64,000 nucleotides of DNA from Bradyrhizobium sp. CB3481 (GTDB taxonomy: Bacteria > Pseudomonadota > Alphaproteobacteria > Rhizobiales > Xanthobacteraceae): the NCBI RefSeq assembly GCF_029714305.1, contig NZ_CP121647.1:7956501-8020500 (forward strand). The letters are read 5' to 3'. Below, piece by piece: positions 44,616-60,636 of this stretch. A program made the position numbers and the translations under genes. Position 1 is the stretch's first letter. Each line of letters begins with the position of its first letter. Below the pieces are notes generated by a model. That model made no database searches. It saw nothing but the letters and a program-made list of their open reading frames with translations, and had not been told where the DNA came from.

Positions 44616-44876
44616 TTACTCACCCGCGCGAACAGCTTGCGGCGAAGTGCGGTCGCTTGAGCAGATAACCCCTGGCGAACGATCGTCGGCCAATGCGCTA
44701 TTCCCCTGATGCCCCGCTGCCGGGACGAGCAGCGTGCAGGCACAGTAAGCCAGCCCGATTCCAAGTAGCGACGCAGAGAAGACCGCGGCGACGGATTGCA
44801 AGGTCGCGGACCGTGCTCGCGGAGATGAGCGCGGCCTGTCGGTGGTGACGAGCGATATGTGGCTTGAGATGGACAC
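44616..44876 (-). CDS. Possible small membrane protein (86 aa)
   Basis: This frame lies in an otherwise empty 518-base gap (44484-45001). It starts at GTG 44876 with GGGGA nine bases upstream and contains one hydrophobic helix (VAAVFSASLLGIGLAYCACT, residues 29-48) with a polar tail. Overlapping open frames exist on the same strand, so coding status is uncertain. I see nothing else in the gap. Confidence 0.3.
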   Translation of the reverse strand: MSISSHISLVTTDRPRSSPRARSATLQSVAAVFSASLLGIGLAYCACTLLVPAAGHQGNSALADDRSPGVICSSDRTSPQAVRAGE

Positions 44877-45001
44877 GACCGATTGTCCCCAATGAAGAAT
44901 GACGACTTCGAAGATCGGCCGCCGCTGGCAGCGGCGGCGCGGTGTCTGAATCCCATTACGGTCAGCTCTCCGCCTCGTCTCCGGCGAGCCGCATGACCGC
45001 G

Positions 45002-45502
45002 TTAATGGTGCTTGTGCGAGATACCATTGACGCCGCTGACGGCGGCTCCGGCGTTTTCCTCGACGTTGTAGATGATGTCGACCGATCCGGCCTTTTCGAA
45101 CACCAACGTGCCCTTGATCTTCTGGCCGACCTGCAGTGGCTCCTTGAGGCCGAGCAGCACGATGCGAAGCGCGCCGGGCTTCAGCTCCACGGTCTTGCCC
45201 GGCTTGATCTCGATGCCGTTGGCGAGCGGGCGCGTCTTCGCCATACCGTCGACGTCGACGATCTCATGCACTTCGATCTGGCTCGCGACCGGCGAGGAGC
45301 CGCCGATCAGGCGATCCGCCGCCTTGCCCTTGTTGGTGATGGTGAGATAGCCGCCCGCGATGTTGGCTTCCTTCGGGGTCGGGCGCGACCAGGGATGGCC
45401 GATGTCGAGCGCGCCGACCTTGTACTCGTGCGCCGCGGCGCTGGTCGCGGCGAATGCAGCCGCAGCAACAGATGCAACGAAGATTCTAAATATGATTGTC
45501 AT
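45002..45502 (-). CDS. Periplasmic PCu(A)C copper chaperone, atypical ligands
   Basis: A 166-residue protein with signal peptide MTIIFRIFVASVAAAAFAAT cut near Ala24. The PCu(A)C fold is clear: VGALDIGHPWSRPTPKEANI, AGGYLTITNKG and GALRIVLLGLKEPLQVGQKI. The canonical copper motif H(M)x10Mx21HxM is degraded: Leu53 replaces the Met of GGYM, and Ile81 replaces the Met after His79-Glu80. A C-terminal SHKHH may supply other ligands. GGAG eight bases upstream supports ATG 45502. It is transcribed divergently from a Met/His-rich outer-membrane protein gene. Confidence 0.9.
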   Translation of the reverse strand: MTIIFRIFVASVAAAAFAATSAAAHEYKVGALDIGHPWSRPTPKEANIAGGYLTITNKGKAADRLIGGSSPVASQIEVHEIVDVDGMAKTRPLANGIEIKPGKTVELKPGALRIVLLGLKEPLQVGQKIKGTLVFEKAGSVDIIYNVEENAGAAVSGVNGISHKHH

Positions 45503-45559
45503 GCCGTCCACTCCGATACTCATACTCACGCTGGACAGACAGCCATGTAGAGAAACAAT

Positions 45560-45602
45560 CGGACGCGATTACGACCACCGCCGGACGTGATTGCGGTCAC
45601 CG
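45560..45602. promoter_or_regulatory. Tandem 21-base direct repeat between the copper-type genes
   Basis: CGGACGCGATTACGACCACC(G) at 45560-45580 recurs as CGGACGTGATTGCGGTCACC(G) at 45582-45602, with 17 of 21 positions equal and a period of 22 bases (two DNA turns). It lies in the 321-base divergent gap, which otherwise holds no supported gene. A regulator binding on one DNA face could control both genes. Confidence 0.5.
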
Positions 45603-45823
45603 CGTCGGCGCGAAAAAGCCGGCTGTACAACCCGGCCGCGACGCCGTGCCAGCTTTGTCATTCGTCCACCACGCGATGGCCACAGAGATGTCGCGCCCGC
45701 GATCATGGCTTCGTTTTTCCGCTTCGCTTCCGTCGCGAGCAGGCCGCGCTTCTCGCACGATCCAGTCAATCTGGCGCCCGATTGCGATGGCTAATCGCCA
45801 GGCAGTAAGTACAGGGGGCGTAT

Positions 45824-46975
45824 GTGCGTGCGTATTTTGAGCGGCCCACGGCCGGCATCTTTTTTTCATCGATGATGCTTTTCCTCGCTGCTCCTGCCGA
45901 AGCGCATCATCCCGGCGGCGGCGGCAACACCGGCAGCGGCGGCGCCATCAACACCATCTCCGCCGATACGCTGGCCGAAGGCATGTTCGCCGCATCGATC
46001 CGCTACGAATTCATCCGGCTCGGCCAGCTCAGCGACGCCGACCTGCTCGCCGCCGCGAACCGCGGCACGCATGCGCATTCGCTCCGCTCGATCGACGCCA
46101 TGTCGCTCTCGGTCGCCTACGGCATCACCAACGACCTGACCCTTGCCGTTCGCGCTTCCGGCGTCCGCCGCTCCGATATCCGCGAGCCCGGCGAGGACAT
46201 GCTGAGCGGCGGCCATATGGGCATGATGAATTCGAACGAGATGAGCAGCCTGATGAGCGCCGATGGCGTCAACCGGCGCGGCAATTCCGCCGGCTTCGGC
46301 GACGTGACCATGCTCGGCCAGTATCGCTTCCACAACAACGCGCAGACCGGAACGTCCGCCGCCGTGCTGTTCGGCTTCAAGGCGCCGACCGGCAGCACCA
46401 GCCAGCGCGACAATTTCGGCCAGCTCTTCGAGGCCGAATTTCAGCCGGGCTCGGGCTCATGGGACGGCCTGATCGGCGCCGCCTTCACCAAGCGCACCGG
46501 ACGCTGGGCGTTCGACGTCAGCGGCCTCTACTACCTGGTCAGCAACGGCACGCAGAACACCAATCTCGGCGACCGCTTCCTGTTCGGCACCGCGGTGTCG
46601 TACCGCCTGGTCGGCCCGGTCGGCTCGGCGAAAGAGGTGGAGCTGCACGATTACTGCATGCAGCCGCGCAACCAGCTCCAGGAGCACTGCCTCTACCACG
46701 CCAATCACGACCACAGCGACATGAAGAAGACGCCCTATACGCTCGACCTCGTTCTCGAGCTCAACGGCGAATGGCACGACAAGCAGCGCATCGCCGGCAT
46801 TGCCGACCCCAATTCCGGCGGCACCACGGTCTATCTATCGCCCGGCCTCCGCGTCGGCGTCGACCGCTTCTCCGGCTTCGTGTCGTTCGGCGTGCCCGTT
46901 ATCAATCAGCACAACGGCGTTCAATCCAAGCCGGATTACCGGATCCTGACGGGGATTGGGGCGCGGCTGAATTAA
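45824..46975 (+). CDS. Outer-membrane beta-barrel protein with Met/His-rich loops (copper-associated)
   Basis: A 383-residue exported protein with signal peptide cut near Ala27 (AAPAEA, then HHPGGGG). Alternating amphipathic strands and a C-terminal LTGIGARLN suggest a transporter-type barrel of the phenol/meta-pathway outer-membrane superfamily. Metal-like stretches stand out: MLSGGHMGMMNSNEMSSLMS at 126-145, and His/Cys/Met residues at 275-300 (LHDYCMQ, HCLYHANHDHSDM). The start is GTG with GGGGG six bases upstream. It is divergent from the PCu(A)C gene, so copper handling is inferred. Confidence 0.8.
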   Translation: MRAYFERPTAGIFFSSMMLFLAAPAEAHHPGGGGNTGSGGAINTISADTLAEGMFAASIRYEFIRLGQLSDADLLAAANRGTHAHSLRSIDAMSLSVAYGITNDLTLAVRASGVRRSDIREPGEDMLSGGHMGMMNSNEMSSLMSADGVNRRGNSAGFGDVTMLGQYRFHNNAQTGTSAAVLFGFKAPTGSTSQRDNFGQLFEAEFQPGSGSWDGLIGAAFTKRTGRWAFDVSGLYYLVSNGTQNTNLGDRFLFGTAVSYRLVGPVGSAKEVELHDYCMQPRNQLQEHCLYHANHDHSDMKKTPYTLDLVLELNGEWHDKQRIAGIADPNSGGTTVYLSPGLRVGVDRFSGFVSFGVPVINQHNGVQSKPDYRILTGIGARLN

Positions 46976-47004
46976 CCGTCGCGTTTACTGAACCTCGCCT
47001 CTCG

Positions 47005-47092
47005 GTCATGGCCGGGCTCGTCCCGGCCATCCACGCTTTCTTAGGACGGAGACCAAAGACGTGGATGCCCGGGACAAGCCCGGGCATGACGA
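47005..47092. repeat. Palindromic repeat, family C, copy 1
   Basis: GTCATGGCCGGGCTCGTCCC at one end is mirrored by GGGACAAGCCCGGGCATGAC at the other, with ATCCACG/CGTGGAT inside. It lies between the outer-membrane protein gene and the convergent chemoreceptor gene. The second copy is at 49373-49458. Confidence 0.9.
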
Positions 47093-47111
47093 TGTAGCTA
47101 GCGCCTAACCC

Positions 47112-48809
47112 TTAGGCCGCGCGGATGTTGCCGAGGAATTTGCCGGTTTCGGTTTCGAGCTGCTCGGACTGCGAGGTGAGCTGGGCCGCGGCGTTCAGCA
47201 CGAGGGTCGCGGACGCGTCGACCTGGCTCGAGGCCTCGCGGACGCCCGCGATGTTTTGCATCACTTCCTGCGCGCCCTGCGCCGCTTGCTGAACGCTGCG
47301 GGCAATCTCGCGCGTCGCAGCGCCCTGCTCTTCGACCGCCGCGGCAATCGAGCCGGTGATTTCGTTCATCTGCCCGATCGTGGTACCGATCTCGCGGATG
47401 GCGTTGACGGTCGAGCCGGTCGCATCGCGGATTTCCTGGATCTGGCTGGTGATCTCGTCGGTCGCTTTCGCGGTCTGCGACGACAGCGCCTTGACCTCGT
47501 TGGCGACGACGGCAAAGCCGCGGCCGGCCTCGCCGGCCCGGGCGGCCTCGATGGTCGCGTTGAGCGCCAGCAAGTTGGTCTGTCCCGCAATGGTCTGGAT
47601 CAGCGCCATCACCTCGCCGATCTTCTGCGAGGCCTCGACCAGGCGACCGACCATGGCTTCGGTCCTGTCGGCCTGCCCGACCGCGTTCTGGGCGATGGAC
47701 GACGACTGCGTGACCTGACGCGCGATCTCCTGTATCGAGGACGACAGTTCCTCCGCCGAGGCGGCGACGGTCTGGACGTTCGCGGCCGTCGTCTCGGCGG
47801 CGGCCGCGACCCTCGCGCTCTGATCGGTGGTGCCGACCGCGACCTTGGACATCGAGGAGGCGGAATTCTGCAGCTCGTCGGCGGCGGTGGCGGTGCCGCG
47901 GATCACGCCGCCGATGCTGCGCTCGAAATCGTCGGCGATGCGGGACAGAACAGCCTGCCGCTCCTCGGTGGAACGCGCCTTCATCGCTTCCTGTTCGGTG
48001 CGGAGCTGCGTGCTCTCGACCAGATGGTCCCTGAAAACCTGCAGGCTGCGCGCGATCCGGCCGATTTCGTTGCTCTGATCGACGAACGGAATTTCGGCCG
48101 CAAGGTTGCCCTTGGCCAGCTCATCCATCGCCGCACAGGTCCTGCTCAGCGGAACGACCACGCCGCGGCCAAGCCAGAACGCGACCAGCGCCGCGAGGGT
48201 CAGGCCGGCGAGGCCGGCGATCCCAGCCCACATCATCCGGTTGAATACCACGGCATCGATATCGTCGACATAGGCGCCTGCCTGCAGCGCGAGCATCTTG
48301 TCGCCCGCGCCAAACGCGCCGACATAGGAGACCTTGCGCTTTTCCTCGCCGCCCGCCGAGCGTGGCGCCAGATATTCGACAAAGCCGCCGCCGGCCCGGG
48401 CCGTCCGCACGATGTCCTGGATCAACAGCTTGCCGCTCTTGTCCTTGAACTCCCAGCGGTTGACGTTGATGTATTTCGGATTGGCATGGACATAGGTGAC
48501 GCCGGCGTCAGTGCTTCCGGTGCCGTAGACGCCGATATAATCGGAATATTCGCCCCAGCGCATGGCGCTGATCGAGGCAAAAGCCATCTGGCGCGCCTGG
48601 TCCGCGCTGATCTTGCCGGCCTTGGCCTCGCCTTCATGGTGGGCGAGGATCTTGATCGAAGCTTCAACCAGGTTGCGAACCGTGGTCCGCCGCTCTTCCA
48701 GCACCGCATCGCGTAACACCAGGATCTGCAGCGCGGAGACCGCAACGAGCACGATCGTCAGCGCGGCAATGATCATCGCAAAGCGCTGGTAAACGGTGAG
48801 GTTACGCAT
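47112..48809 (-). CDS. Methyl-accepting chemotaxis protein with single Cache sensor
   Basis: A 565-residue receptor: membrane helix at about 9-31, periplasmic sCache_2-type domain at about 35-185 ([20 protein letters not shown]), second helix at about 190-212, HAMP, and the signalling hairpin near 395-440 with tip [20 protein letters not shown]. The C-terminus FLGNIRAA lacks a CheR-docking pentapeptide. The sCache domain in relatives binds small carboxylates, but the ligand is unknown. The gene stands alone, with no che genes nearby. Confidence 0.95.
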
Positions 48810-48997
48810 TGCCGGGTTCTCTTCCTATGGGTTGAGAATGCGTACCAACACAACGTTAATCGACTGTTAGCGGGTTGCAGCGATGCCTGCAGCATCCGAT
48901 CGCGAGAATCGGCGCTTGAAATGACGGCGCCGCGGCGACACAATGGCTCTTTCCTTCAAACCGACACGCCCATGGTCCCCGCACCGAACGGAATCGC

Positions 48998-49342
48998 ATG
49001 GTGCGGCAAGAGTGGACCAGAATGGCTGAAGCCGATCTCGACGTTGTCATCCGGCAAATCGCAAAAGCACAGAACAAGAGCCTGATCGCCGCCGTGAAGA
49101 AGCGGCGCGACCAGATCATGGCCCGCGCGGCCAAGGCAAAAGACAAGGAGACGCGGGACCGCTTCCGGCTGATCGCCAGGAGCACGATGGAGCTCGGCAC
49201 CGCCGCGGCGCGGCGGCTGCATAATTCGGCGGAAATCGCCGCCGACAGCTACGCCCGCGCGATCCGCAACGCCGCCGAGGAAGCCGCGGCGGCAGCGGCG
49301 AAGAAGCCCGCGAAAAAGGCGGCTAAGACGAAAGAAGCATAA
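48998..49342 (+). CDS. Small helical protein with Lys/Ala-rich histone-like tail
   Basis: A 114-residue protein. The N-terminal 75 residues are charged and helical (LDVVIRQIAKAQNKSLIAAV). The C-terminus is low complexity (AAAAAAKKPAKKAAKTKEA), like bacterial histone H1-like or nucleoid-associated tails. An ATG at 49022 (MAEADL) may be the true start. Nucleic-acid binding is inferred from composition only. It converges with the amino-acid locus, with repeat family C between. Confidence 0.65.
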   Translation: MVRQEWTRMAEADLDVVIRQIAKAQNKSLIAAVKKRRDQIMARAAKAKDKETRDRFRLIARSTMELGTAAARRLHNSAEIAADSYARAIRNAAEEAAAAAAKKPAKKAAKTKEA

Positions 49343-49372
49343 GAACTTTGGTTATTGCGCGCACTCTCACGA

Positions 49373-49458
49373 TCGTCATGGCCGGGCTTGTCCCGGCCAT
49401 CCACGCTCTTTGATCCGGAAGAAGACGTGGATGCCCGGGACAAGCCCGGGCATGACGA
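49373..49458. repeat. Palindromic repeat, family C, copy 2
   Basis: TCGTCATGGCCGGGCTTGTC opens the element, and its mirror GACAAGCCCGGGCATGACGA closes it, with ATCCACG and CGTGGAT inside. It lies between convergent genes, as does copy 1. Confidence 0.9.
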
Positions 49459-49499
49459 GTTTGTGGAACGATCAGGACACACCAAGCCGCTAAAACGAT

Positions 49500-50141
49500 T
49501 CAGGCGCCCGTAACACCCAGCATCTTCTTCAGCTTCTGCACCGCGCTGTCGGGCGTGGTGAGGACCGGCCGGCCGGTCGCCTCGGCGACATCAGCGGCGG
49601 CCGGCGCCAGGCTGTACTGGGCGAGCGCGATCAGGTCGCAGTCGCGCAGGTCCTTTGCGGCTTCGACCACCAGGTGGTCGTGGGTCGCACGGTCGCCACG
49701 ATCGAGCGCGGCCATCGCGCCTTCCACCAGCTTCGGCACCAGCTCGACCTGCGCTGGGAACTCCGGCGGCATCGAAACCAGCGTCGGCGGAAACGTCGAG
49801 AGCAGGCCGATCTTCTTAGCCGCCGCGACCGCCTGCTCGATCATCGCCTCGTTCGGCTTGAGCACCGGCATCGGGGCATGCGCACGCGCCACCGCCTCGA
49901 TGCAGGGGCCGAACGCCGAGCAGGTGAACAGGATCGCATCCGCCCCGGTGCCGGCGGCGTAGCGCCCGAGCCGCAGGAAACGCTCGGTCATGGCCTCGGT
50001 GAGCCCGCCGTCGCGCGCCAGATCGGCGGAAAGACTATCATCGAGCAGGTTCATCAGGCGCGCCTCCGGCCAAAGCCTCGCGAAGGAGGCTTCGATCGGC
50101 ACAATCGAATGTTTCAGGGCGTGGACCAGGGTGATGCGCAT
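49500..50141 (-). CDS. Aspartate/glutamate racemase superfamily protein, single-cysteine site
   Basis: A 213-residue protein of the Asp/Glu/hydantoin racemase fold, with Cys74 in LFTCSAFGPC as the first active-site position. The second half reads IALAQYSLAPAAADV, so the usual second catalytic Cys is absent there. That is more like arylmalonate decarboxylase or maleate isomerase relatives, or a non-racemising enzyme. ATG 50141 is used; ATG 50156 is possible. It is last in the operon with the binding protein and aminotransferase, which suggests it acts on the imported compound. Confidence 0.85.
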   Translation of the reverse strand: MRITLVHALKHSIVPIEASFARLWPEARLMNLLDDSLSADLARDGGLTEAMTERFLRLGRYAAGTGADAILFTCSAFGPCIEAVARAHAPMPVLKPNEAMIEQAVAAAKKIGLLSTFPPTLVSMPPEFPAQVELVPKLVEGAMAALDRGDRATHDHLVVEAAKDLRDCDLIALAQYSLAPAAADVAEATGRPVLTTPDSAVQKLKKMLGVTGA

Positions 50142-50198
50142 GTCGACCAATCTCACCGCGGCGCGGCTTGTGTTAACCGCTCGCGCCGCAGGGTCGTT

Positions 50199-51209
50199 CT
50201 ATTTGAACGGCAGGGCGTACATCAACCCGCCCTTGCTCCAGGTCGCGTTCAGGCCGCGATCGAGCTTCAGCGGGCTCGCCTTGCCGACATTGCGCTCGAA
50301 GATCTCGCCGTAATTGCCGCCCGCCTTAATCGCCTGCAGCATCCACTTGTTGTCGAGGCCGAGCCGCGACCCGAGATCGCCCGCCGTGCCGACCAGGCGC
50401 TGGATGGCCGGGACGCTCGATTTCGCCATCTCATCGGCATTGCCGGCAGTCACGCCGAGTTCTTCCGCCTCGATCAGGCCGTAGTGCAGCCAGGCAATGA
50501 TGTCGGTCCACGCCTCGTCACCATTGCGGGTGAAGGGCCCAAGCGGCTCTTTGCTGATGGTCTGCGGCAGCACGACATAGTCGGCGGCGTTCGAGGCCGC
50601 CGTGGTGACGGCGCCCGCCAGCGCGGATGCATCCTGGGTCATGGCATCGCAGCGGCCGCCGAAAAAGGTCTGGTACATCGTGTCGGTGCGATCGAACACA
50701 AGGGGTTTCCACTCGATGCCGTTGGCGCGGCCGTAATCGCCGAGCGTAACTTCGTGGGTCGTGCCCTGCGCGACGCAGACGGTCGCACCGTTGAGGTCCT
50801 TGAGGTTCTTCACGCCGGCATCCGCGCGCACCACAAAACCCTGGCCGTCGTAGAAATTGACGGGCCCCTGCCGCAGCCCGAGCGTCACGCCGCGCAGATA
50901 GGTCTGGGTCGAGTTGCGGTAGAGCACGTCGATTTCGCCGGATTGCAGCGCGGTGAAGCGGTTTTGCGCCGTGAGCGCGACGTATCGCACCTTCTTGGGG
51001 TCGCCGAGCACGCCGGCCGCCAGCGCGCGGCAATAGTCGACGTCTAGCCCTTTGTAATTGCCTTGCGAGTCCGGCGTCGAGAAGCCGGCAAAGCCGATGC
51101 TAACGCCGCAGACCAGCATGCCGCGCTGCTTGACCGTATCCAGCGTCCCGGCCTGTGCCGTGAGGCACGACGCGGCGAGCAAGCCTGTAGCGATGACGAT
51201 TCTCTTCAT
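50199..51209 (-). CDS. Amino-acid ABC transporter substrate-binding protein (AapJ-like)
   Basis: A 336-residue periplasmic protein with signal peptide MKRIVIATGLLAASCLTAQA. It is of the AapJ/BztA general L-amino-acid type: VKQRGMLVCGVSIGFAGFST, GLDVDYCRALAAGVLGDPKK, ALQSGEIDVLYRN and QGPVNFYDGQGFVVRADAGV. AGGAGGG supports the ATG. It lies in the same operon as the aminotransferase, 12 bases downstream, and its permeases are encoded on the divergent side. Ligand specificity may be narrower than in AapJ. Confidence 0.93.
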   Translation of the reverse strand: MKRIVIATGLLAASCLTAQAGTLDTVKQRGMLVCGVSIGFAGFSTPDSQGNYKGLDVDYCRALAAGVLGDPKKVRYVALTAQNRFTALQSGEIDVLYRNSTQTYLRGVTLGLRQGPVNFYDGQGFVVRADAGVKNLKDLNGATVCVAQGTTHEVTLGDYGRANGIEWKPLVFDRTDTMYQTFFGGRCDAMTQDASALAGAVTTAASNAADYVVLPQTISKEPLGPFTRNGDEAWTDIIAWLHYGLIEAEELGVTAGNADEMAKSSVPAIQRLVGTAGDLGSRLGLDNKWMLQAIKAGGNYGEIFERNVGKASPLKLDRGLNATWSKGGLMYALPFK

Positions 51210-51221
51210 ACTGCCCTCCTG

Positions 51222-52571
51222 CTAATGACCTACACTCTTCAAGGCGCCGTCGACCGCCTGGCCCAGCCGATCGACGATCATGTCGATGTCGTCCGGCGTC
51301 GCGATATAGGGCGGCGCGAGCAGCACGTGGTCGCCGCTGCGGCCATCGGCGGTTCCGCCCGCGGGATAGCAGCCAAGGCCACCTTCGAAGGCGATTGCCT
51401 TGACGCGCTGATGCAGTTTGAGCGCAGGATCGAACGGCGCACGGGTGGCACGATCGGCTACAAGCTCGATCGCCCAAAACAGGCCGCGGCCCCTGATGTC
51501 GCCGACATGCCGGTGATTGCCGAAACGCTCGGTCAGCCGCCGTTCTAGCTGAGCGCCGAGAGCCCTGACACGGTCCAGCAACTGCTCCTCCTCGATCACG
51601 CGCTGCACTTCGAGCGCCGCCGCGCAAGCCATCGGATGCGCCAGATAGGTATGGCCGTGCTGGAACGCGCCCGAGCCGTCGCGGATAGCATCGATGACGC
51701 GCCCGCTCGCCAGCATGGCGCCGATCGGCTGATAACCGCCGCCGAGGCCCTTGGCGACCGTCTGGATATCGGGCGCAATGCCTTCCTGCTCCCAGGCGTG
51801 GACCGTGCCGGTGCGGCCCATGCCGCACATCACCTCGTCGAGCATGACGAGCGCGCCGTATCGATCGCAGATCTCACTGATAGCGCGGAAATATCCTTCC
51901 GGCGCCGGCACGCAGCCGGCGGTCGCGCCGACGACCGGCTCGGCGATGAACGCCGCGACGTTCTCCGGACCGAGGCGCTGGAATTCCGCATCGAGCTCCG
52001 CCGCCAGACGACCGACGAAATCGGTCTCGGATTCGCCGTCGCGCTTTTCGTGATAGGCAAACGCCGGCGTGACGTGGCTGAACGCGGTTGACAGCAGCGG
52101 CGCATAGGGCTCGCGGCGCCAGGCATTGCCGCCGGCCGCCAACGCGCCCAGCGTATTGCCATGATAGCTCTGGCGCCGCGCGATGAAGTGCCGGCGCTGC
52201 GGCTGGCCGATCTCGATGAAATATTGCCGCGCCAGCTTGATGCCGGCCTCGACGGCCTCCGAACCACCGCTGACGAGATAGGCATAAGCCAGCCCGCCGG
52301 GCTCATGGCCGACGAGCTTGTCGGCCAGCGCTTCGGCCGGCTCGGACGAGAAGAAGCCCGTATGGGCATAGGCGAGCCTGGACGCCTGCCGCGCCATCGC
52401 CTCGAGCACGCGCGGGTGCTGGTGGCCAAGACAGGAGACGGCGGCGCCGCCGGACCCGTCCAAAATCCGCCGGCCGTCCTCGGCAATCAGCCAGACGCCT
52501 TCGCCGCCGATTGCCTTGGGCGGAGTTTGACGCAGGCTTCGATGCAGCACCCGGCTCTGACTGGCGCGCAT
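51222..52571 (-). CDS. Class III aminotransferase (PLP)
   Basis: A 449-residue omega-aminotransferase fold. GSEAVEAGIKLARQYF, RRQSYHGNTLGALAAGGNAW, VMLDEVMCGMGRTG and QTVAKGLGGGYQPIGAML with the PLP-binding Lys are diagnostic. I prefer ATG 52571, with AAAGG nine bases upstream, over TTG 52580, which overlaps the regulator stop. It may transaminate an omega-amino or 2-oxo acid taken up by the linked ABC system. The exact amino donor is not readable from the sequence. Confidence 0.92.
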   Translation of the reverse strand: MRASQSRVLHRSLRQTPPKAIGGEGVWLIAEDGRRILDGSGGAAVSCLGHQHPRVLEAMARQASRLAYAHTGFFSSEPAEALADKLVGHEPGGLAYAYLVSGGSEAVEAGIKLARQYFIEIGQPQRRHFIARRQSYHGNTLGALAAGGNAWRREPYAPLLSTAFSHVTPAFAYHEKRDGESETDFVGRLAAELDAEFQRLGPENVAAFIAEPVVGATAGCVPAPEGYFRAISEICDRYGALVMLDEVMCGMGRTGTVHAWEQEGIAPDIQTVAKGLGGGYQPIGAMLASGRVIDAIRDGSGAFQHGHTYLAHPMACAAALEVQRVIEEEQLLDRVRALGAQLERRLTERFGNHRHVGDIRGRGLFWAIELVADRATRAPFDPALKLHQRVKAIAFEGGLGCYPAGGTADGRSGDHVLLAPPYIATPDDIDMIVDRLGQAVDGALKSVGH

Positions 52572-52576
52572 AATAG

Positions 52577-53452
52577 TCAACCTTTCTCGGCAACGTATTG
52601 CGACATCGCGGCGAGCCGGCCTTCGGTCTCCTCGAGCCGGCGCTTGGCCTTGGCACCGCCGAGCACGAAGCTGACCGCCGCCAGCGACTGCGCGATCGCA
52701 ATGGCGCCGGTCAAGCTCGGAAAGAACCCGGGCGATGCGGCCGCTTCGAACAGCAGCAGGTGATCGGCGCCCTCTGCCATCGGCGCGGTAACGGCATCGG
52801 CAATCGCGATCAGCGTGGCGCCGGAATCATGCGCGGCGCGCGCCGACAGCACGCTCGCCCTGGAATAGGGCGTAAAGCCGATGACCACGACCGCGTCGCC
52901 GCTTCCGAAGGCGCCGAGGTCGAGATCCTCCGGACCGGCACCCCCGACCAGTTGCACCTCGTCGGGCCGGAACAGGCGAAGCTGATAGTTGAGCAATTCG
53001 GCGACGCTGCGACAGCTTCGAAAGCCCGCGATCCAGATTCGCCGCGCTTCATGCAGGGCCTTGGCTGCATCGGCCACCGAGCCGGTGGAAATGCGCGAAA
53101 GGCCCGCCGCCTCGGCCTCCAGCTTGTCGGCGACCAGCGATATCTCGGCGTGGGGTCCTTTGCGGCCGCCGCGGGTGCGGGCCGAGAACGGCTGCGCCTG
53201 CGCCGGCCGGCGCGCCTCGGTCAGCGCGGCGCGTAACTCATCCCAGCCGGAATAACCGAGCGCCTTGGCCAGACGTGTGAAGGCAGCGGGATCGGCACCG
53301 GCCTCGGCGGCAAGATCACGCATTGAGCGCGTGGTGGCGTCGTAATCATTGGCGGCGACGAAACGCCCGACCTGCTGCAGCCGCGCCGGCAGTGACGGCA
53401 ATGCACTGCACAACTGGGTGAGCGGCGAGGATTTCGGTTGCGGCTGGGCCAT
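52577..53452 (-). CDS. MurR/RpiR family transcriptional regulator
   Basis: A 291-residue regulator with an N-terminal HTH_6 domain (MRDLAAEAGADPAAFTRLAK, about 43-62) and a C-terminal SIS domain (RIWIAGFRSCRSVAELLNYQ, GDAVVVIGFTPYSRASVLSA), which binds a phosphosugar or other small ligand. It heads the operon that encodes the aminotransferase, binding protein and racemase-like enzyme. A perfect palindrome lies eight bases before its ATG and probably is its operator. No good ribosome-binding site precedes ATG 53452. Confidence 0.93.
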   Translation of the reverse strand: MAQPQPKSSPLTQLCSALPSLPARLQQVGRFVAANDYDATTRSMRDLAAEAGADPAAFTRLAKALGYSGWDELRAALTEARRPAQAQPFSARTRGGRKGPHAEISLVADKLEAEAAGLSRISTGSVADAAKALHEARRIWIAGFRSCRSVAELLNYQLRLFRPDEVQLVGGAGPEDLDLGAFGSGDAVVVIGFTPYSRASVLSARAAHDSGATLIAIADAVTAPMAEGADHLLLFEAAASPGFFPSLTGAIAIAQSLAAVSFVLGGAKAKRRLEETEGRLAAMSQYVAEKG

Positions 53453-53459
53453 GAAACAA

Positions 53460-53490
53460 ATGTTGCATATATTCCGATTTGATGCAACAT
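53460..53490. promoter_or_regulatory. Palindromic operator between divergent amino-acid operons
   Basis: ATGTTGCAT (53460-53468) and ATGCAACAT (53482-53490) are perfect inverted arms with 13 bases between. The site occupies the 62-base gap between the RpiR-type gene and the permease genes. I infer that RpiR binds here and controls both directions. Confidence 0.8.
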
Positions 53491-53514
53491 ATGAAACGCG
53501 CCCCGCCAGGACGC

Positions 53515-54735
53515 ATGGCCGAAGATCGCTGCTGGAAGGATCCTTGTGCTGTGACGACATCGACGCCCGAACTCCGCCGCAGGCAATTGCGCTTCTCGCT
53601 GAGCCGCCAACAGATCATCGGCCTGATCTGGCAGGTCGTGGTAGTCGGGATAGCGGTCGGGATCGTCGCCTTCCTGTGGTCGAACGCCCTGCATAATCTG
53701 TCGGCGCGCCGGATTTCGACCGGCTTTGCCTTTCTCGGCCGCGAAGCCGGGATGCCGATCGCGGACACCTGGCTCGCCTATAGCCCGAAGGACCCTTACG
53801 TCCGCGCCTTCATTGTCGGCATCGTCAACACGCTGCGCGTCGCCGTGACCGGCATCGTGCTGGCAACGGTGCTCGGCACACTGATCGGCATTGCGCGGCT
53901 GTCGTCGAACTGGCTGCTGTCGCGGCTTGCCGCCGTCTACGTCGAATTGCTCCGCGACATTCCACTCTTGCTGCAACTCCTGTTCTGGTACGTGCTGATG
54001 CAGGGCCTGCCGGCGGCCCGCGCCGCGTGGAAACCGATCGAGGGCGTCTTTCTTTCCAACAGGGGGTTGGTGCTGCCCTCTATTCCGCTCGCGGAGGCGA
54101 ATTTGTGGGTGATCGCCGCAGCATTGGCCGGACTGGTTGCGCTCTTCATCGTGCGGCGGCAACTGACCGCGCGACACGAGGCCGACGGCAAGGTACGTCA
54201 TCTCTGGCCTTATACGCTGGCGCTTGTCGTCGGACTACCGGTGCTGGTGTCGCTCAGCCTCGGCGCATCCTGGACCATCACGATGCCGGAATTGCGCGGC
54301 TTCAATTTCGTCGGCGGGCTGACGCTGGCGCCGGAATATTTCGCGCTGCTGATCGCGCTCGTTACCTACACCTCGGCCTTCATCGCCGAGATCGTGCGCA
54401 GCGGCATCCAGGCTGTGCCGAGGGGACAATGGGATGCGGCAAACGCGCTGGGGCTGCGCCGCAGCTTCGTGCTGCAGCGTATCGTGCTGCCGCAGGCGCT
54501 GCGCGTGATCATTCCACCGATGACCAGCCAGTACCTGAACCTGACCAAGAACTCTTCGCTCGCGGTTGCGGTCGGCTACCAGGACGTTGTCTCGATCGCC
54601 AACACGACGCTGAACCAGACCGGCCAGGCGATCGAAGCCATTGCGCTGATCATGATGGTGTTCCTGACGATCAGCCTCAGCATCAGCCTGCTCATGAACT
54701 GGTACAATGCGCGTATCGCGCTGGTGGAGCGCTGA
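53515..54735 (+). CDS. Amino-acid ABC transporter permease, AapQ-like
   Basis: A permease of about 406 residues with roughly eight helices. The inner core (LRDIPLLLQLLFWYVLMQGL) and the EAA loop AEIVRSGIQAVPRGQWDAAN match the HisM/AapQ family. I place the start at ATG 53515, with AGGA three bases upstream. ATGs at 53482 and 53491 lie in or beside the operator, and GTG 53551 is also possible. It is followed by the second permease four bases on. The ATPase subunit is absent from the locus. Confidence 0.9.
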   Translation: MAEDRCWKDPCAVTTSTPELRRRQLRFSLSRQQIIGLIWQVVVVGIAVGIVAFLWSNALHNLSARRISTGFAFLGREAGMPIADTWLAYSPKDPYVRAFIVGIVNTLRVAVTGIVLATVLGTLIGIARLSSNWLLSRLAAVYVELLRDIPLLLQLLFWYVLMQGLPAARAAWKPIEGVFLSNRGLVLPSIPLAEANLWVIAAALAGLVALFIVRRQLTARHEADGKVRHLWPYTLALVVGLPVLVSLSLGASWTITMPELRGFNFVGGLTLAPEYFALLIALVTYTSAFIAEIVRSGIQAVPRGQWDAANALGLRRSFVLQRIVLPQALRVIIPPMTSQYLNLTKNSSLAVAVGYQDVVSIANTTLNQTGQAIEAIALIMMVFLTISLSISLLMNWYNARIALVER

Positions 54736-54739
54736 TCCC

Positions 54740-55861
54740 ATGACCTCGATATCGGAGGCTCCACAAAACCCGCTACCATTCAACAGCGCGCGAACCCGCA
54801 AGGTCCCGGGTGGCTATGTCACCCGCTGGCTGCGCGCCAACCTGTTCGCCTCGGTCACCTCCTCGCTCATTACCGTGATTCTCGTCGTGCTGCTCGGCAA
54901 GGCGCTGCTGAGCGTCGTGCAATGGGGTTACTGGAATGCGATCTGGTCGCTGCCCGGCGACCAGACCGCGGCCTGCCGATCGATCCGCGGGATCGGTGCT
55001 TGCTGGGCCGTGATCCCCGAAAAATACCGTTTCATCCTGTTCGGCACCTATCCATTCAATGAGCAATGGCGGCCGGCACTGGTCTGCCTGACGTTCATCG
55101 CGCTGTTCTTCGTGTCGAGCCGGCGCAGCTGGTGGCGCAAGGAGCTGGTGCTGCTCTGGGCGGCTGCGCTGGCGCTGATCGGCGTCCTGATGTGGGGCGG
55201 CATTTTCGGATTGAGCTACGTGCCGCAGGACCGCTGGGGCGGACTTCCGGTGACGCTGATCCTCGCGACATTCGGGCTCGCCTTCGGCTTTCCGCTCGGG
55301 ATCGTCGTGGCGCTGGGCCGCCGTTCGAAATTGCCGGCGATCCGCTCGCTCTGCGTGCTCTATGTCGAGCTGATCCGCGGCGTGCCGCTGATCAGCCTCC
55401 TGTTCATGGCGAGCGTGATGTTTCCGCTGTTCATGCCCGATGGTGTCAACATCGACAAGCTCTTGCGGGCGCAGATTGCCTTTGTGCTGTTCGCCGGCGC
55501 CTATCTTGCCGAAGTGATCCGCGGCGGGCTGCAGGCGGTGCCGCGCGGCCAGCACGACGCCGCCGACGCGCTCGGGCTCTCCTACTGGAAGAAGAACGGC
55601 CTGATCATCCTGCCGCAGGCGATCCGCCACGTGATCCCGCCGCTGGTGAACACCTTCATCGCCTTCTTCAAGGATACCAGCCTGGTGCTGATCATCGGCA
55701 TCTTCGACCTGCTGACGACGGCGAAGACCTCGATCATCGATCCGGCCTGGCAGCCGTTCAGTGTCGAAGTCTACCTGTTCGTGGCGCTGATCTATTTCCT
55801 GTTCTGCTTTGCGATGTCCCGCTACAGCCGCAGCCTGGAGGCGCAGTCGCGCCACAGCTGA
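54740..55861 (+). CDS. Amino-acid ABC transporter permease, AapM-like
   Basis: A 373-residue permease, the usual partner of AapQ, with signature AEVIRGGLQAVPRGQHDAAD and helices such as GLPVTLILATFGLAFGFPLG. It begins four bases after the first permease stop, at ATG 54740 (MTSISEAPQNP). Both act with the AapJ-like binding protein encoded on the other side of the operator. No aapP-like ATPase gene follows; the next gene is a convergent chemoreceptor. Confidence 0.92.
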   Translation: MTSISEAPQNPLPFNSARTRKVPGGYVTRWLRANLFASVTSSLITVILVVLLGKALLSVVQWGYWNAIWSLPGDQTAACRSIRGIGACWAVIPEKYRFILFGTYPFNEQWRPALVCLTFIALFFVSSRRSWWRKELVLLWAAALALIGVLMWGGIFGLSYVPQDRWGGLPVTLILATFGLAFGFPLGIVVALGRRSKLPAIRSLCVLYVELIRGVPLISLLFMASVMFPLFMPDGVNIDKLLRAQIAFVLFAGAYLAEVIRGGLQAVPRGQHDAADALGLSYWKKNGLIILPQAIRHVIPPLVNTFIAFFKDTSLVLIIGIFDLLTTAKTSIIDPAWQPFSVEVYLFVALIYFLFCFAMSRYSRSLEAQSRHS

Positions 55862-55908
55862 CAGCGAGGGGGCCGCCGCGGAACGGCGGACCAGCCGAAC
55901 GCGACGAC

Positions 55909-58035
55909 CTATGCCGCCTTGATGCGGGCCAGGAAGCGGCCGACCTCGTTGCTGAGCGCTTCGGACTCTGCCGCAAGGCCATCGGAAGATTCCAGAACGT
56001 CGGAGGCGGTCTCGCCGGTCTGGTTGGCCGCGTTCGAGACGCCGACGATGTTGTTGGAGACGTTCTGCGTGCCGGCAGCAGCCTGCTGGATGTTACGCGC
56101 GATCTCCGCCGTCGCCGCGCCCTGCTGTTCGACCGCGGAAGCAACGGTGGTGGCAATCTCCGACATCTTGTCGATGATCTGGCCGATGCCCTTGATGGTA
56201 TCCACCGCTTCCTGGGTCGAGTCCTGAATGGCCGCGACCTGCGCGGTGATGCCTTCGGTGGCGCGCGCGGTCTGCGTGGCAAGGTTCTTGACCTCGGAGG
56301 CGACGACAGCAAAGCCCCTGCCGGCCTCCCCTGCGCGCGCCGCTTCGATGGTCGCGTTCAGCGCCAAGAGGTTGGTCTGCGCGGCAATGGTATTGATCAA
56401 GCCGACTACCTCGCCGATGCGGTTCGCTGCGCTGGCAAGCTCGGTGACCGTGACTTCGCTCTTCGCCACCTGCTCGACGGCCTGGGCCGCGATCCGTGCG
56501 GATTCGCCGACCTGCCGGGAAATCTCCCCGATCGAGCTCGATAGTTCCTCGGTCGCCGACGCCACCGTCTGGACGTTCGTCGCGGCCTGTTCCGAGGCGG
56601 ATGCGACCGCGCCGGTCTGTTCCTTGGCCTGCGCCGCGACCAGCGACATCTTCTCCGCTGAACCCTTCATGCGAGAGGCGGCGTTCGACACCGCGGCCAG
56701 CGCGCTGGTTGCGCCGTCGTTGAACTCGCGCGTCAACTGGTCGATCAGCGCGGCCTGCCGTTGCTTCGCCTCCTGCTCGGCAGCCTTTTCCGCCGCGGCC
56801 GCGTTGGCCTGGACGATGCCTTCGCGGAATACCGACAGCGCTTCCGCCATCTGGCCGATCTCGTCGCCACCGCGCTTCGTATCGACCTCGGCCGAGAGGT
56901 CGCCATCGGCAAGACGCGTCATGGTCTTCTCCAGGCCGACCAGCCGCGCCACCAGATTGCGGCCGATATAGAACCAGACGAATAGCGCGGCGCCGGCGAC
57001 GCTGATCGCCGCGATCATCAGCATGACGGAAGTACCAAAGCCGATCGCCTCATCGGACCGGTCGGTGGCCTCCTTGGTCTTGTTGGTGACAGCCTTGACC
57101 TGGGCGGCGACTTCCTTGGCAAGCTCGCCGGTCAGGCCGCGCGTCTCGTCCAGCAGTTTCTGGCCGAGCTGGCTCGCGGCAAGCTCCTTGCGGCGCGTCT
57201 CGAAGATCGTTTCGCCCGAGCCGAGCTTCAGCCAGGCCTCGCCCGCCTTCGGCAGGCCTTCGGTCGGCTGCAGGGTGTTGACGATATCGAGCTTCTCCTC
57301 GACCTTGGCCGACATCGCCTTGAAATTCTTCTCCAGTGTCGCAACGCTTTCGGCGTTCGGCGCGACCGCCGCGCGGTCCAAGAGACTCGACGCCAGATTG
57401 ACGAAGCCGACCAGGTCGGCAAAGCCCTGCGACACCGGCACCTGGGTCGAAACCAGCTTGAGCAGCGTCATCATGGTCTGGTTGGCGTCGCCGCCGAGCG
57501 TCATCGAGACCATGGTGATGTCGGCTTGGGCCTTTTCACCGGCCGGAAGCAGAACGTCGTTGAGCTTAGTCTGCGTGTTCTGGGCGGCCTTCACGATCTC
57601 TTCGCCGCGGGCGCTGAGCTTGAGGCGATCGTCGACGGCGCCATCGAGCGCAGCCAGCTTGGTATTCATGGCCGCGATCAGCGTCTTCAGCCGGTCGATC
57701 GCCTCGCGATCGGATTGCGTGCGGGCGACGTCGTCGAGCCGCTTGGCGATGCCGTCCTGACGTGCCTTTAGCGCGGCCATTTCCTGCTGCCGCTGCGCCT
57801 GCGATTTTGCCGCCAGCAGCGTCGGCGCGGAACCGGCGAGCGCCTGGGTGTCCGTCTGCAATCCCAGCGTTTCGACAATCTCGGGAATGTTGCGGCCGGC
57901 AACGCCGTGGAAAAGATCGCGAACCTGCGAGAACATCAGCCAGGCGGCGCCGCCCGCGATGACGGTGGTCCCCGATACCGCAGCGAAAGCGAAGAAAAGC
58001 TTGGCCCGGATGCCGAGTTTGCGAGTTGATGTCAC
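55909..58035 (-). CDS. Methyl-accepting chemotaxis protein with large helical periplasmic domain
   Basis: A 708-residue receptor: membrane helix at about 13-35, a long helical ligand domain (about 40-345) resembling helical-bimodular (HBM) sensors, a second helix (MLMIAAISVAGAALFVWFYI), HAMP and a signalling domain with tip [24 protein letters not shown] at 58035 with GAGGA seven bases upstream is a better start than TTG 58050. It lies directly downstream of an orphan TRAP binding protein gene, which suggests the two work together. HBM domains in relatives sense organic acids. Confidence 0.94.
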   Translation of the reverse strand: MTSTRKLGIRAKLFFAFAAVSGTTVIAGGAAWLMFSQVRDLFHGVAGRNIPEIVETLGLQTDTQALAGSAPTLLAAKSQAQRQQEMAALKARQDGIAKRLDDVARTQSDREAIDRLKTLIAAMNTKLAALDGAVDDRLKLSARGEEIVKAAQNTQTKLNDVLLPAGEKAQADITMVSMTLGGDANQTMMTLLKLVSTQVPVSQGFADLVGFVNLASSLLDRAAVAPNAESVATLEKNFKAMSAKVEEKLDIVNTLQPTEGLPKAGEAWLKLGSGETIFETRRKELAASQLGQKLLDETRGLTGELAKEVAAQVKAVTNKTKEATDRSDEAIGFGTSVMLMIAAISVAGAALFVWFYIGRNLVARLVGLEKTMTRLADGDLSAEVDTKRGGDEIGQMAEALSVFREGIVQANAAAAEKAAEQEAKQRQAALIDQLTREFNDGATSALAAVSNAASRMKGSAEKMSLVAAQAKEQTGAVASASEQAATNVQTVASATEELSSSIGEISRQVGESARIAAQAVEQVAKSEVTVTELASAANRIGEVVGLINTIAAQTNLLALNATIEAARAGEAGRGFAVVASEVKNLATQTARATEGITAQVAAIQDSTQEAVDTIKGIGQIIDKMSEIATTVASAVEQQGAATAEIARNIQQAAAGTQNVSNNIVGVSNAANQTGETASDVLESSDGLAAESEALSNEVGRFLARIKAA

Positions 58036-58071
58036 GGTCTGTTTCCTCAATTCTTGAGCGCAGCTTGTTCT

Positions 58072-59127
58072 TTACCTGGCGGCAAGCTTGTACTGCTGGA
58101 CCAATTCCCTGGCGCGGGCATAAAGCCGCTCGCCGTCAATGCCGAGCTTGGCCATGTTGACCTTCCATTCGGCGACCGCCGGCGCGGTGACCCGCTGCAG
58201 ATCGGCGCGCTGGTCGTCCGTAAAGGCGAGCGCTGCAAAACGCGGATCGCTCTGCAGCTTCTTCTTGGTAACGGCTTCCTGCGCCTCGCGGATGCGTGCG
58301 CTGCCCATGGCGAGGTCGGAAGAATGCTTTTCGATGATCTTCTTCAGATCCGATGGCATCGATTCCCACGTGGCGCGGTTCATGACGATCATCAGCGCCG
58401 GCGCCGCCAGCCGCGCATCGATCACGACCTTGAGCTGGTCGACGAGAAACTTGCCGCCCGCGCCCTTGGTCGTGGTCGTGGAGTCCCAGCCATAGGCGAT
58501 CGCATCGACATAACCGCTGGCGATCGTGTCGCCGATCATATTGAGGGGAATGCCGAGCGGCACCGCACCGAGCTTGGCGAGCGCGACACCCACCGTCGTG
58601 CTGGGCGTGCGCATCCGCAGGCCGCGGAAATCTTTTACCGACTGGATCTTCTTGCCGGTCGTGAAGATCGGATAGGGCGGCAACACATAAAGGCCGAGCA
58701 CCTTGACCGAGGCGTAGTCCTTGTCGAGCAGGCCTTCCTTGTAGAGCGACATCATCGCCGAGGTGCCCGAGATCGAGTTATCGAACATGAAGGGCAGTTC
58801 CATCACTGATGATTGCGGGAAGCGGCCCGGATGGTATCCCTGCACGGTCGCCGCCATCTCGATGGCGCCCTTCTCGACCATGGTGAACAGCTCGGCCGGC
58901 TTGCCGTAACCGCCGATCGGCTTCAGCGCCACTTCGATGCGTCCGCCGGACTCCTCTTCGACCGCCTTGGCAAACGGCAGCAGGACCTGATCGTAGGCCG
59001 GCGTGTTTTCGGTGTTGATCGAGCCGAAACGCAGAACCACATCCGCAGCAGATGCAGGCGTCACGAAGAAGGTAGCGAGACCAAGCAGGGCTGTGGCCGC
59101 GGATGGAATCCTGGTGCGGGAGAACAT
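58072..59127 (-). CDS. TRAP transporter solute-binding protein (DctP-like), orphan
   Basis: A 351-residue periplasmic receptor with a signal peptide cut near Ala27. The DctP family core is visible (VVLRFGSINTENTPAYDQVL, LKPIGGYGKPAELFTMVEKG, FRGLRMRTPSTTVGVALAKL). AGGA six bases upstream supports ATG 59127. No dctQ or dctM gene is nearby; instead a chemoreceptor gene follows, 36 bases after the stop. It may deliver its ligand to the chemoreceptor or to a distant TRAP permease. The ligand is probably a carboxylate. Confidence 0.92.
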   Translation of the reverse strand: MFSRTRIPSAATALLGLATFFVTPASAADVVLRFGSINTENTPAYDQVLLPFAKAVEEESGGRIEVALKPIGGYGKPAELFTMVEKGAIEMAATVQGYHPGRFPQSSVMELPFMFDNSISGTSAMMSLYKEGLLDKDYASVKVLGLYVLPPYPIFTTGKKIQSVKDFRGLRMRTPSTTVGVALAKLGAVPLGIPLNMIGDTIASGYVDAIAYGWDSTTTTKGAGGKFLVDQLKVVIDARLAAPALMIVMNRATWESMPSDLKKIIEKHSSDLAMGSARIREAQEAVTKKKLQSDPRFAALAFTDDQRADLQRVTAPAVAEWKVNMAKLGIDGERLYARARELVQQYKLAAR

Positions 59128-59374
59128 TCTGTTTCCTTGATCACCGTCAGCTGTCGAGTTCGGCTCGCAGCAACTGTCGGTCGCATGGCGGGTCCTTGAC
59201 AGCATCGACCATAGCTTTCGCGAATTAATCGCGGGTAAAGCTTGCAACGGGGCTAAGGCTCCGTAGGAACACGGATTCTCTTCCGCAAAAAAGAATGACG
59301 GCCGTCATTCTTCGCGAAGCCTCGTATGAATTGGTCGACCCGTCAGCGGTTGGTAGGCCCGGCGTCTCGGCGCG

Positions 59375-59737
59375 CTACACCTTCACCAGGCTTTCGAAGC
59401 CGCCATAGATCATCCGCTTGCCGTCGAACGGCGGCGAAGTGTCTTTCCCGAACATGTCCTTGAGCCGTGGGTCCGCCATCACCTTGGCGTTGATCTTGTC
59501 GCGCTGGGCGCGCGACTTATAGGTAATCCAGGCGAACACGACGACTTCGCCCGGCTTCAGCTTGACGCTGCGCGGGAACGAGGTGAACTTGCCGACCTTG
59601 ACGTCGTCAGCGACCCATTCGCGATAATCCAGCGCGCCGTATTCGCGCCAGATCTTGCCGCACTTCTTCGAAATGCGGATATAGGCTTCGAGATTCTTCT
59701 TGGGCACGGGAACGATGAAGCCGTCGACGTAAGGCAT
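59375..59737 (-). CDS. DUF1428 family protein
   Basis: A 120-residue protein of the DUF1428 (dimeric alpha/beta barrel) family: YVDGFIVPVPKKNLEAYIRI, YREWVADDVKVGKFTSFPRS and KPGEVVVFAWITYKSRAQRD. GAGGA about eight bases before ATG 59737 supports the start. It lies on the same strand as the DUF899 and AHSA1 genes but behind a family B repeat, so it may be a separate unit. The function is unknown. Confidence 0.88.
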   Translation of the reverse strand: MPYVDGFIVPVPKKNLEAYIRISKKCGKIWREYGALDYREWVADDVKVGKFTSFPRSVKLKPGEVVVFAWITYKSRAQRDKINAKVMADPRLKDMFGKDTSPPFDGKRMIYGGFESLVKV

Positions 59738-59763
59738 TACGAGTTTCCTCTTCACGTTGAAGA

Positions 59764-59877
59764 CGTCATTGCGAGCGCAGCGAAGCAATCCACCTATCCG
59801 TCGTGCCGTGACATGGATTGCTTCGCGGAGCCTGTCATCGGGTGCGCGGGCGCGCGACCCGTTGGCTCGCAATGACG
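59764..59877. repeat. Palindromic repeat, family B, copy 2
   Basis: CGTCATTGCGAGCGCAGCGA begins the element, GCTCGCAATGACG ends it, and GAAGCAATCCA / TGGATTGCTTC mirror inside. It is longer than the other copies because of an extra GC-rich hairpin (GGTGCGCGGGCGCGCGACCC). It lies between two minus-strand genes. Confidence 0.85.
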
Positions 59878-59886
59878 GCGTACCTT

Positions 59887-60621
59887 TCAGCTACGGCAAC
59901 AAGATGCCTGAACTGGCGACGGCTGGTACTGGTCACGTAGCCGCACCCAGTCCATCGGATAGGGCAGGCCTTCCTCATGACGCCCGAGCGGGGTGAGGTC
60001 GAGATAATGATAGGCGGCATTCATCATGTCGAGGCCGCGCGCATAGCAGGAATAGGTATGGAAGATACTCCCGGCCTCGTCGCGATAGAACACGCTGATG
60101 CCGGGCGCCTCTTCGCTTCCGAACGGCGTGGTCCCGAAATTGTAGTTGCCGCCCGCCTCGATCTGCTCCGGCGTGAACGAGACGCCGAAATCGTAGTTGA
60201 AATCGTTGCCGCCGGACGACAGCCAGTTGAAGGTCCAGCCCATCCGCTGCTTGAATGCAACGAGCTTTTCCAGCGGCGCACGCGAGATCGCGACCATCGT
60301 CGTATCGCGGGCGGCGAGGTGCGGGATCATGCGCTCGAAGCCGTCAGCCCAGAATGAGCAGCTCTTGCACGCTTCATCCCAATCGGGCGCGAACATCAGG
60401 TGCTGGACGACGAGCTGGCTGCGGCCCTTGAAGAGGTCGTCGAGCGACACTTTCCCTTCGGGGCCGTCGAACAGATAGTCCTTGTCGACCTTGACCCATG
60501 GCAGCGCGCGGCGCTCCTCGGCCAGACGCTCGCGCGCGTGGGTGTACTCCTTCTCATGCGCAAGGTGAGCCTTGCGCGCGGCGATCCATTCCTCGCGGGA
60601 GACGGCGGGGTGCGATGGCAT
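59887..60621 (-). CDS. DUF899 family thioredoxin-like protein
   Basis: A 244-residue protein of the DUF899 family (thioredoxin-like fold): ALPWVKVDKDYLFDGPEGKV, QHLMFAPDWDEACKSCSFWA and MGWTFNWLSSGGNDFNYDFG. CKSC stands at the place of a redox motif. A Cys pair at the extreme C-terminus (ASCCRS) is unusual. AGGAG seven bases upstream supports ATG 60621. It is third in the ArsR/AHSA1 operon, 15 bases after the AHSA1 stop. Enzymatic activity is unproven. Confidence 0.87.
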   Translation of the reverse strand: MPSHPAVSREEWIAARKAHLAHEKEYTHARERLAEERRALPWVKVDKDYLFDGPEGKVSLDDLFKGRSQLVVQHLMFAPDWDEACKSCSFWADGFERMIPHLAARDTTMVAISRAPLEKLVAFKQRMGWTFNWLSSGGNDFNYDFGVSFTPEQIEAGGNYNFGTTPFGSEEAPGISVFYRDEAGSIFHTYSCYARGLDMMNAAYHYLDLTPLGRHEEGLPYPMDWVRLRDQYQPSPVQASCCRS

Positions 60622-60636
60622 GATCGGCTCCTGTGT

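Follow-up and report, generated by a model that had tools for sequence, protein, structure and literature searches.

A five-gene RpiR-linked cassette of Bradyrhizobium predicted to import and transaminate an amino acid-like compound

Does a divergent six-gene locus of Bradyrhizobium sp. CB3481 deal with a single amino compound by itself, and if so which of its genes belong to the task? The locus lies within a stretch of 64,000 nucleotides (hereafter the window; contig NZ_CP121647.1, positions 7,956,501 to 8,020,500) and encodes an RpiR-family regulator, a class III aminotransferase, an AapJ-type periplasmic binding protein, two Aap-like permeases (the AapQ-like permease 1 and the AapM-like permease 2) and a protein of the Asp/Glu/hydantoin racemase superfamily. 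An earlier description made from the letters of the DNA (the sequence-only reading) had called it a self-contained locus for uptake and conversion of one compound. Open reading frame lists and profile searches place all six genes where that reading had put them, in the families it had named and in the divergent layout it had drawn (Table 1). On the best reading, the locus takes up and transaminates an amino acid-like compound, which may be a beta-amino acid, under the control of RpiR. More specifically, and with a probability of about 0.6, five of the six genes would form an RpiR-controlled catabolic cassette in which an AapJ-type binding protein and permeases energised by AapP import the compound, the class III aminotransferase deaminates it and RpiR represses the genes. 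The kind of locus is ordinary, uptake and transamination under a local regulator, yet this one is well defined and all-or-none in its occurrence.

The genes that travel together are those for the binding protein, the aminotransferase, RpiR, permease 1 and permease 2. The aminotransferase is found in 26 of the 35 genus genomes other than the window's own, and in every one of the 26 the genes for the binding protein, RpiR and permease 1 stand beside it in the same arrangement; permease 2 is present in 25, the exception (L041) stopping at a contig edge. (Matches covering less than 40% of the query were dropped from these counts.) All nine genomes without the aminotransferase lack an RpiR orthologue, the best matches there being 24-25% identical. 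Signs of wear are few: in L038 the permease 1 match contains one stop, in L055 permease 2 is split, and in L056 the aminotransferase match is short. A further set, the best 80 of 137 RpiR relatives in named genomes (78 of the 80 titled Bradyrhizobium), overlaps with the 26 and has the binding protein, aminotransferase, RpiR and permease 1 at all 80 loci and permease 2 at 79, the missing one falling at a contig edge. The racemase-like gene is next to the cassette in 24 of the 26 genomes and at 75 of the 80 named loci; three of these five misses are shortened by a contig edge. The arrangement at the locus is not due to chance. The sequence-only reading had proposed, as a check, to look for conservation of all six genes across Bradyrhizobium; five are conserved together, whereas the racemase-like gene is separable. 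Co-conservation of the five supports a dedicated uptake and transamination unit, divergent around a palindrome able to serve both arms.

Where the cassette is absent, it can be absent cleanly. Genome G001 aligns, with small breaks, to positions 44052-50178 and 55910-63442 of the window, and has 26 other bases in place of positions 50179-55909, which hold the five genes. G021 and G016 have empty sites at a second place on the chromosome, both flanks aligning to cassette-bearing relatives and the cassette being replaced by about 30 and by 6-18 bases, respectively. These three clean empty sites, from three of the nine genomes without the aminotransferase, all retain the racemase-like gene. The cassette is found at three different chromosomal sites, which form groups in a tree of the racemase-like gene; absences of the cassette are scattered among the groups, and the tree, in which several nodes have support below 0.8, suggests about six separate absences. 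Candidate mobile-element ends were rejected: of 50 direct-repeat families, the 20 listed all resemble coding similarity or chance, and we claim no insertion mechanism. No word longer than 8 bases is common to the two cassette ends examined (the window and L046). One record titled 'Frankia sp. RB7' (L317) holds the Bradyrhizobium cassette, with an RpiR 76% identical, and is perhaps a mislabelled or contaminated assembly.

What, then, is the standing of the sixth gene? The racemase-like gene occurs in 17 of the 17 genus genomes tested, including all nine that lack the aminotransferase, and in G020 and G025 it is found apart from the cassette. It is linked to the cassette in most genomes yet separable from it, and since it stays where the cassette is absent its role does not need the cassette. 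Because it persists in cassette-free genomes we rejected it as a default sixth member of the pathway, keeping it as a rival explanation (below), and annotators should likewise not count this neighbour in the pathway by default. The protein has the fold of the racemase superfamily (VIA-align 2) and the first catalytic cysteine, which is present in 15 of 17 aligned relatives, but window-type proteins differ from the two-cysteine racemases at the second position: in the register of an alignment with allantoin racemase the 17 relatives have Gln (14) or His (3) there, and the window protein does not carry both cysteines. Stereochemical or decarboxylative chemistry had been proposed for it. Since none of the 17 has the second cysteine, stereochemistry by the usual two-cysteine mechanism is unlikely, but the protein may still be a decarboxylase or some other isomerase. 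At L134 and L135 racemase-like genes occur as adjacent pairs, and some copies are without the first-position cysteine too.

How would the compound enter the cell? The locus encodes a family 3 binding protein and two permeases of the His/Glu/Gln/Arg type, as an ABC importer for polar amino acids should. Its likeness is to AapJQMP, the general L-amino acid ABC transporter of rhizobia: the binding protein shares 52% identity with AapJ of the same genome (and 44% with a third, solitary copy), and the permeases are 49-54% identical to the genome's own AapQ and AapM. Permease 1 is 49% identical to AapQ, and permease 2 has the AapM of aapJQMP as its best paralogue (53%), the other paralogues listed reaching at most 35%. 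Unlike AapJQMP, however, the cassette is without an ATPase, has altered stretches in its binding protein and is linked to RpiR and a transaminase. No AapP-like ATP-binding subunit was matched in the locus at E 1e-6, and at none of the 26 genus loci is an ATPase encoded among the five genes. The sole AapP-like match in the window (28%) is at 15.6-16.3 kb, and ATPase matches of 31-38% occur in 2 of the 80 named stretches, outside the five genes. With no ATPase in it, the locus is not self-contained. AapP is encoded with aapJQM at about 4.27 Mb in the same genome, and to judge from the sequences this aapJQMP system could supply the ATPase to the cassette permeases. The third AapJ-like binding protein gene (L113, positions 6537-7577; G000:C1 near 634.5 kb) stands alone, with no Aap-type permease or AapP match within the 14 kb around it.

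The binding protein of the cassette departs from canonical AapJ at several stretches, among them RNSTQTYLRG for RNTTWTLSRD and TQDASALA for TSDVSQLY. Its Arg106 and Asp193 are invariant in six aligned sequences; we take residues of this type to grip the carboxylate and amino group of the ligand. Outside the genus, three aminotransferase-linked AapJ-type binding proteins (L188, L201 and L057) carry the similar stretches TQDASALA, TQDSSALA and TTDASGLA, an alteration in common that points to a shared change of ligand.

In the control region, TGAAACAAATGTTGCA abuts the start of rpiR, and the gap shared by the two arms holds the palindrome TGTTGCA-N15-TGCAACA. This gap measures 62 bases with the ATG at 53515 as the start of permease 1, and 38 bases with the in-frame ATG at 53491 instead. 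The palindrome is exact at 74 of the 80 named loci and has at most two mismatches at all 80, with a variable spacer. In the 8 Mb genome its exact form occurs once, every other site having two mismatches or more; within the window there are four sites within three mismatches against 1.57 expected. The operator half-site, in its exact form, also occurs once in the genome, with four one-mismatch sites versus one for a reversed-pattern control. The palindrome is a candidate operator that could serve both divergent arms. A scan for sigma-70 promoters found none but was uninformative. Outside the genus, we took the regions upstream of the 14 rpiR genes that directly precede an aminotransferase gene (those of S. 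meliloti and Shinella, which helped to define the half-site, are among them); all 14 have the half-site with at most two mismatches, four of them exactly. The fair partner of these 14 regions, as opposed to scans of several kb, is a control set of 278 upstream regions of other genes at the same loci, about 310 bases each, of which two have the half-site with at most two mismatches and none with at most one. Because the RpiR proteins of the operator loci outside the genus are only 26-38% identical to that of the window, this is deep conservation.

The window RpiR shares the HTH_6 and SIS architecture of the solved RpiR/MurR regulators (4ivn, 3sho, 8ju9 and 8k3b). Its SIS loops, GFRSC and FTPYS, are not of the sugar-phosphate types, whose motifs are GxGxS and SxSGxT; 4ivn has GVGASS/SSSGST instead, and 8ju9 and 8k3b have GFGASG/SQSGRS, from which the window protein differs at both loops. 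Among the RpiR proteins encoded within four genes of the aminotransferase outside the genus, the arginine is present in 15 of 16 and the PY in 16 of 16. The SIS domain had been suggested to sense the ligand of the cassette. Its loops are unlike those found in most of the solved RpiR proteins, which fits an effector other than a sugar phosphate without demonstrating one.

What might the aminotransferase act on? It passes the PRK07483 family model, and its best solved relative, 3i4j, is named merely as a class III aminotransferase. Of the 385 genomes sampled in the class, 97 carry the family (the window's own genome counted, E up to 1e-130). Neighbourhoods were compared at 59 aminotransferase loci outside the genus, a non-random set of 16 order-level, 3 plasmid and 40 best-scoring class-level places from which the more distant loci L070, L141, L145 and L146 were left out. 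Because our home-made gene caller missed the aminotransferase in six of the 59, gene-caller counts cover 53 loci and tblastn was run on all 59. Within four genes of the aminotransferase, the 53 loci have TRAP transporter genes in 25 cases, a beta-keto acid cleavage enzyme (BKACE) in 20 and RpiR in 16, and 33 of them hold BKACE, RpiR or a TRAP binding protein. One representative of each neighbour cluster scored over the cut-off for NMT1_3 (presumably TAXI-like), DctM with DUF3394, Usp, BKACE or SIS, the HTH_6 part of the RpiR representative falling below its own cut-off. By tblastn, within 5 kb of the aminotransferase, 26 of the 59 loci have BKACE, 18 RpiR, 3 an AapJ-like binding protein and 2 a polar amino acid permease. 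BKACE was not matched at any of the 27 racemase-like loci L114-L140.

BKACE enzymes use acetyl-CoA to cleave beta-keto acids. For this reason, and by analogy, we tentatively suggest, at somewhat less than even odds, that the product of the aminotransferase is a beta-keto acid and its substrate a 3-amino acid. The association of aminotransferase and BKACE is annotated in records from S. meliloti, Shinella and Limimaricola, where plasmid loci have a related aminotransferase (60-61% identical) with MurR/RpiR near it, as in the window. The operator half-site is common to S. meliloti, Shinella and the window; the search at the Limimaricola locus did not find it (4 mismatches). These loci have a 3-keto-5-aminohexanoate cleavage protein (BKACE), and Shinella also has GlnHPQ, whereas the loci of Bradyrhizobium pair the aminotransferase with AapJ/Q/M-type transport and lack BKACE. 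The Kce and Kat branch of lysine fermentation likewise joins a class III aminotransferase with a BKACE enzyme in one 3-amino-compound pathway; the available part of PMC3149608 describes the Kce (BKACE) reaction and the 3-aminobutyryl-CoA transaminase Kat, a HemL-like enzyme whose substrates are CoA esters. Since Kat is of the HemL kind, we rejected a Kat-type identity and keep Kat only as a precedent, nothing here placing the window aminotransferase with it. Of two further sources, the available part of PMC3596328 groups SMb20278-20285 with a polyamine ABC system without showing that it covers the S. meliloti aminotransferase, and that of PMC10888616 has nothing on the locus. The papers listed by literature searches contained neither the PRK07483 family name, nor BKACE, aminotransferase and RpiR named together, nor a description of the locus.

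In the mechanism that we favour, the specialised AapJ-type binding protein would catch an amino acid-like compound, which would pass through the pair of Aap-type permeases, with AapP of aapJQMP supplying the energy in trans. The class III aminotransferase, whose class is established and whose substrate is a prediction, would then remove the amino group. RpiR would repress both arms by binding at the gap palindrome, and would be released by a metabolite of the pathway, which is probably something other than a sugar phosphate. RpiR and the aminotransferase would form an ancient core in Alphaproteobacteria, with transport and downstream partners that vary by lineage: TRAP (TAXI-like) transport and BKACE in many, GlnHPQ in Shinella, and an AapJ-type binding protein in Bradyrhizobium as well as at three loci belonging to other families. 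A bolder proposal is that this core belongs to an undescribed RpiR-gated 3-amino (beta-amino) acid pathway across Alphaproteobacteria (transporter, PRK07483 transaminase, beta-keto acid, BKACE), rebuilt in Bradyrhizobium as a five-gene gain/loss cassette that kept the regulator and operator and has an AapJ/Q/M-type importer, a re-tooled binding protein and a borrowed AapP; this we regard as doubtful.

Several findings weigh against the favoured mechanism or its extension. Coupling to AapP is argued solely from permease similarity. No relative of the aminotransferase with a known natural substrate was identified. BKACE was not found near the aminotransferase in 33 of the 59 loci, nor near the cassette at the 26 genus loci; the related aminotransferase with the rpiR half-site is present in the genus. 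The window genome has two BKACE genes, elsewhere, that are 28-29% identical to the aminotransferase-linked BKACE of S. meliloti; since it has no close relative of the latter, the beta-keto step is not directly transferable to the window, and the keto product must be handled otherwise there. The genomes scored as lacking the aminotransferase include the incomplete drafts G035 (80%) and G016 (89%). When several kb are scanned, a half-site with at most two mismatches turns up at 15 of the 16 loci that have a called RpiR, but it does so at 6 of the 37 lacking one as well; two of those six do have RpiR (L148 by annotation, L196 by tblastn). The solved regulator 3sho has the loops GMGFSA/SVWRYL, the second of which departs as well, and this leaves the loop argument weak. 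Lastly, the racemase-like gene adjoins the cassette at three different chromosomal sites, which weakens the case for its being a bystander.

Could the racemase-like enzyme act on the same compound after all, for example by decarboxylating or isomerising the keto product in place of BKACE? Its recurrent position beside the cassette would agree with this, but its persistence at the clean empty sites and in every genome lacking the aminotransferase, and its separation from the cassette in two others, speak for a gene of independent standing. Moreover its distance from the binding-protein gene ranges from 8 to 290 bases among the named loci, and its relatives elsewhere adjoin varied other genes. 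A six-gene pathway is therefore unlikely, and the proposal of the sequence-only reading that all six genes act on one ligand is not supported.

It is also conceivable, if quite improbable, that the locus is a nitrogen-scavenging spare of the Aap system, combining broad L-amino acid uptake with a broad transaminase and serving no single compound. The closeness of the binding protein to AapJ and of the permeases to AapQ and AapM would be expected of such a spare, and Aap systems are broad; but the signature of the binding protein is unlike that of canonical AapJ and is common to other aminotransferase-linked binding proteins, the locus has its own regulator with an exact operator that occurs once in the genome, and its presence is all-or-none. 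That the permeases and binding protein use an unlinked ATPase other than AapP, or work without ATP as a sensor or exchanger, we consider very unlikely: the lack of an ATPase among the five genes and the presence of several other polar amino acid importers in the genome would permit it, but permease 2 is far nearer to AapM than to the other paralogues listed, and AapP adjoins AapM.

The surroundings of the cassette include two genes for methyl-accepting chemotaxis proteins (sCache_2, TorS-sensor type), at 47112-48809 and 55909-58050, which flank the locus and lie outside the cassette since both are retained in cassette-free G001. A DctP-type TRAP solute-binding protein gene (58072-59247) adjoins the second of them and keeps this position in G001. 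Downstream of the racemase-like gene, at 49374-49457, is an inverted repeat consisting of cgtcatggccgggcttgtcccggccatccacg and its near reverse complement (by eye).

Table 1. Features of the locus, in window positions, with profile scores and other supporting matches (PLP, pyridoxal phosphate)
Feature	Position	Strand	Basis
Asp/Glu/hydantoin racemase-superfamily protein	49500-50141	-	PF01177 49.1 bits, cut-off 31
AapJ-type periplasmic amino acid-binding protein	50199-51209	-	PF00497 47.3 bits, cut-off 26.4; solved-structure match 4z9n
Class III (PLP) aminotransferase, PRK07483 family	51222-52571	-	PF00202 295.9 bits; NF005685 738 bits, cut-off 485
RpiR-family regulator	52577-53452	-	HTH_6 29.3 bits, cut-off 28.3; SIS 36.6 bits, cut-off 25
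Candidate RpiR operator	53452-53489		TGAAACAAATGTTGCA at 53452-53467; palindrome TGTTGCA-N15-TGCAACA at 53461-53489
AapQ-like permease (permease 1)	53515-54735	+	PF00528; TIGR01726 54.0 bits, cut-off 42.2; alternative in-frame ATG 53491
AapM-like permease (permease 2)	54740-55861	+	PF00528; TIGR01726 69.2 bits, cut-off 42.2

If RpiR-controlled import and transamination is the right reading, the substrate of the PRK07483 transaminase family (97 of the 385 genomes sampled in the class) would become testable, and independent handles on the compound would be on offer in the binding protein, the operator and BKACE as the partner enzyme. The cassette would also be an example of an importer that must borrow its ATPase, and its conserved core of regulator and enzyme would be one that keeps its operator while swapping transport and downstream enzymes.

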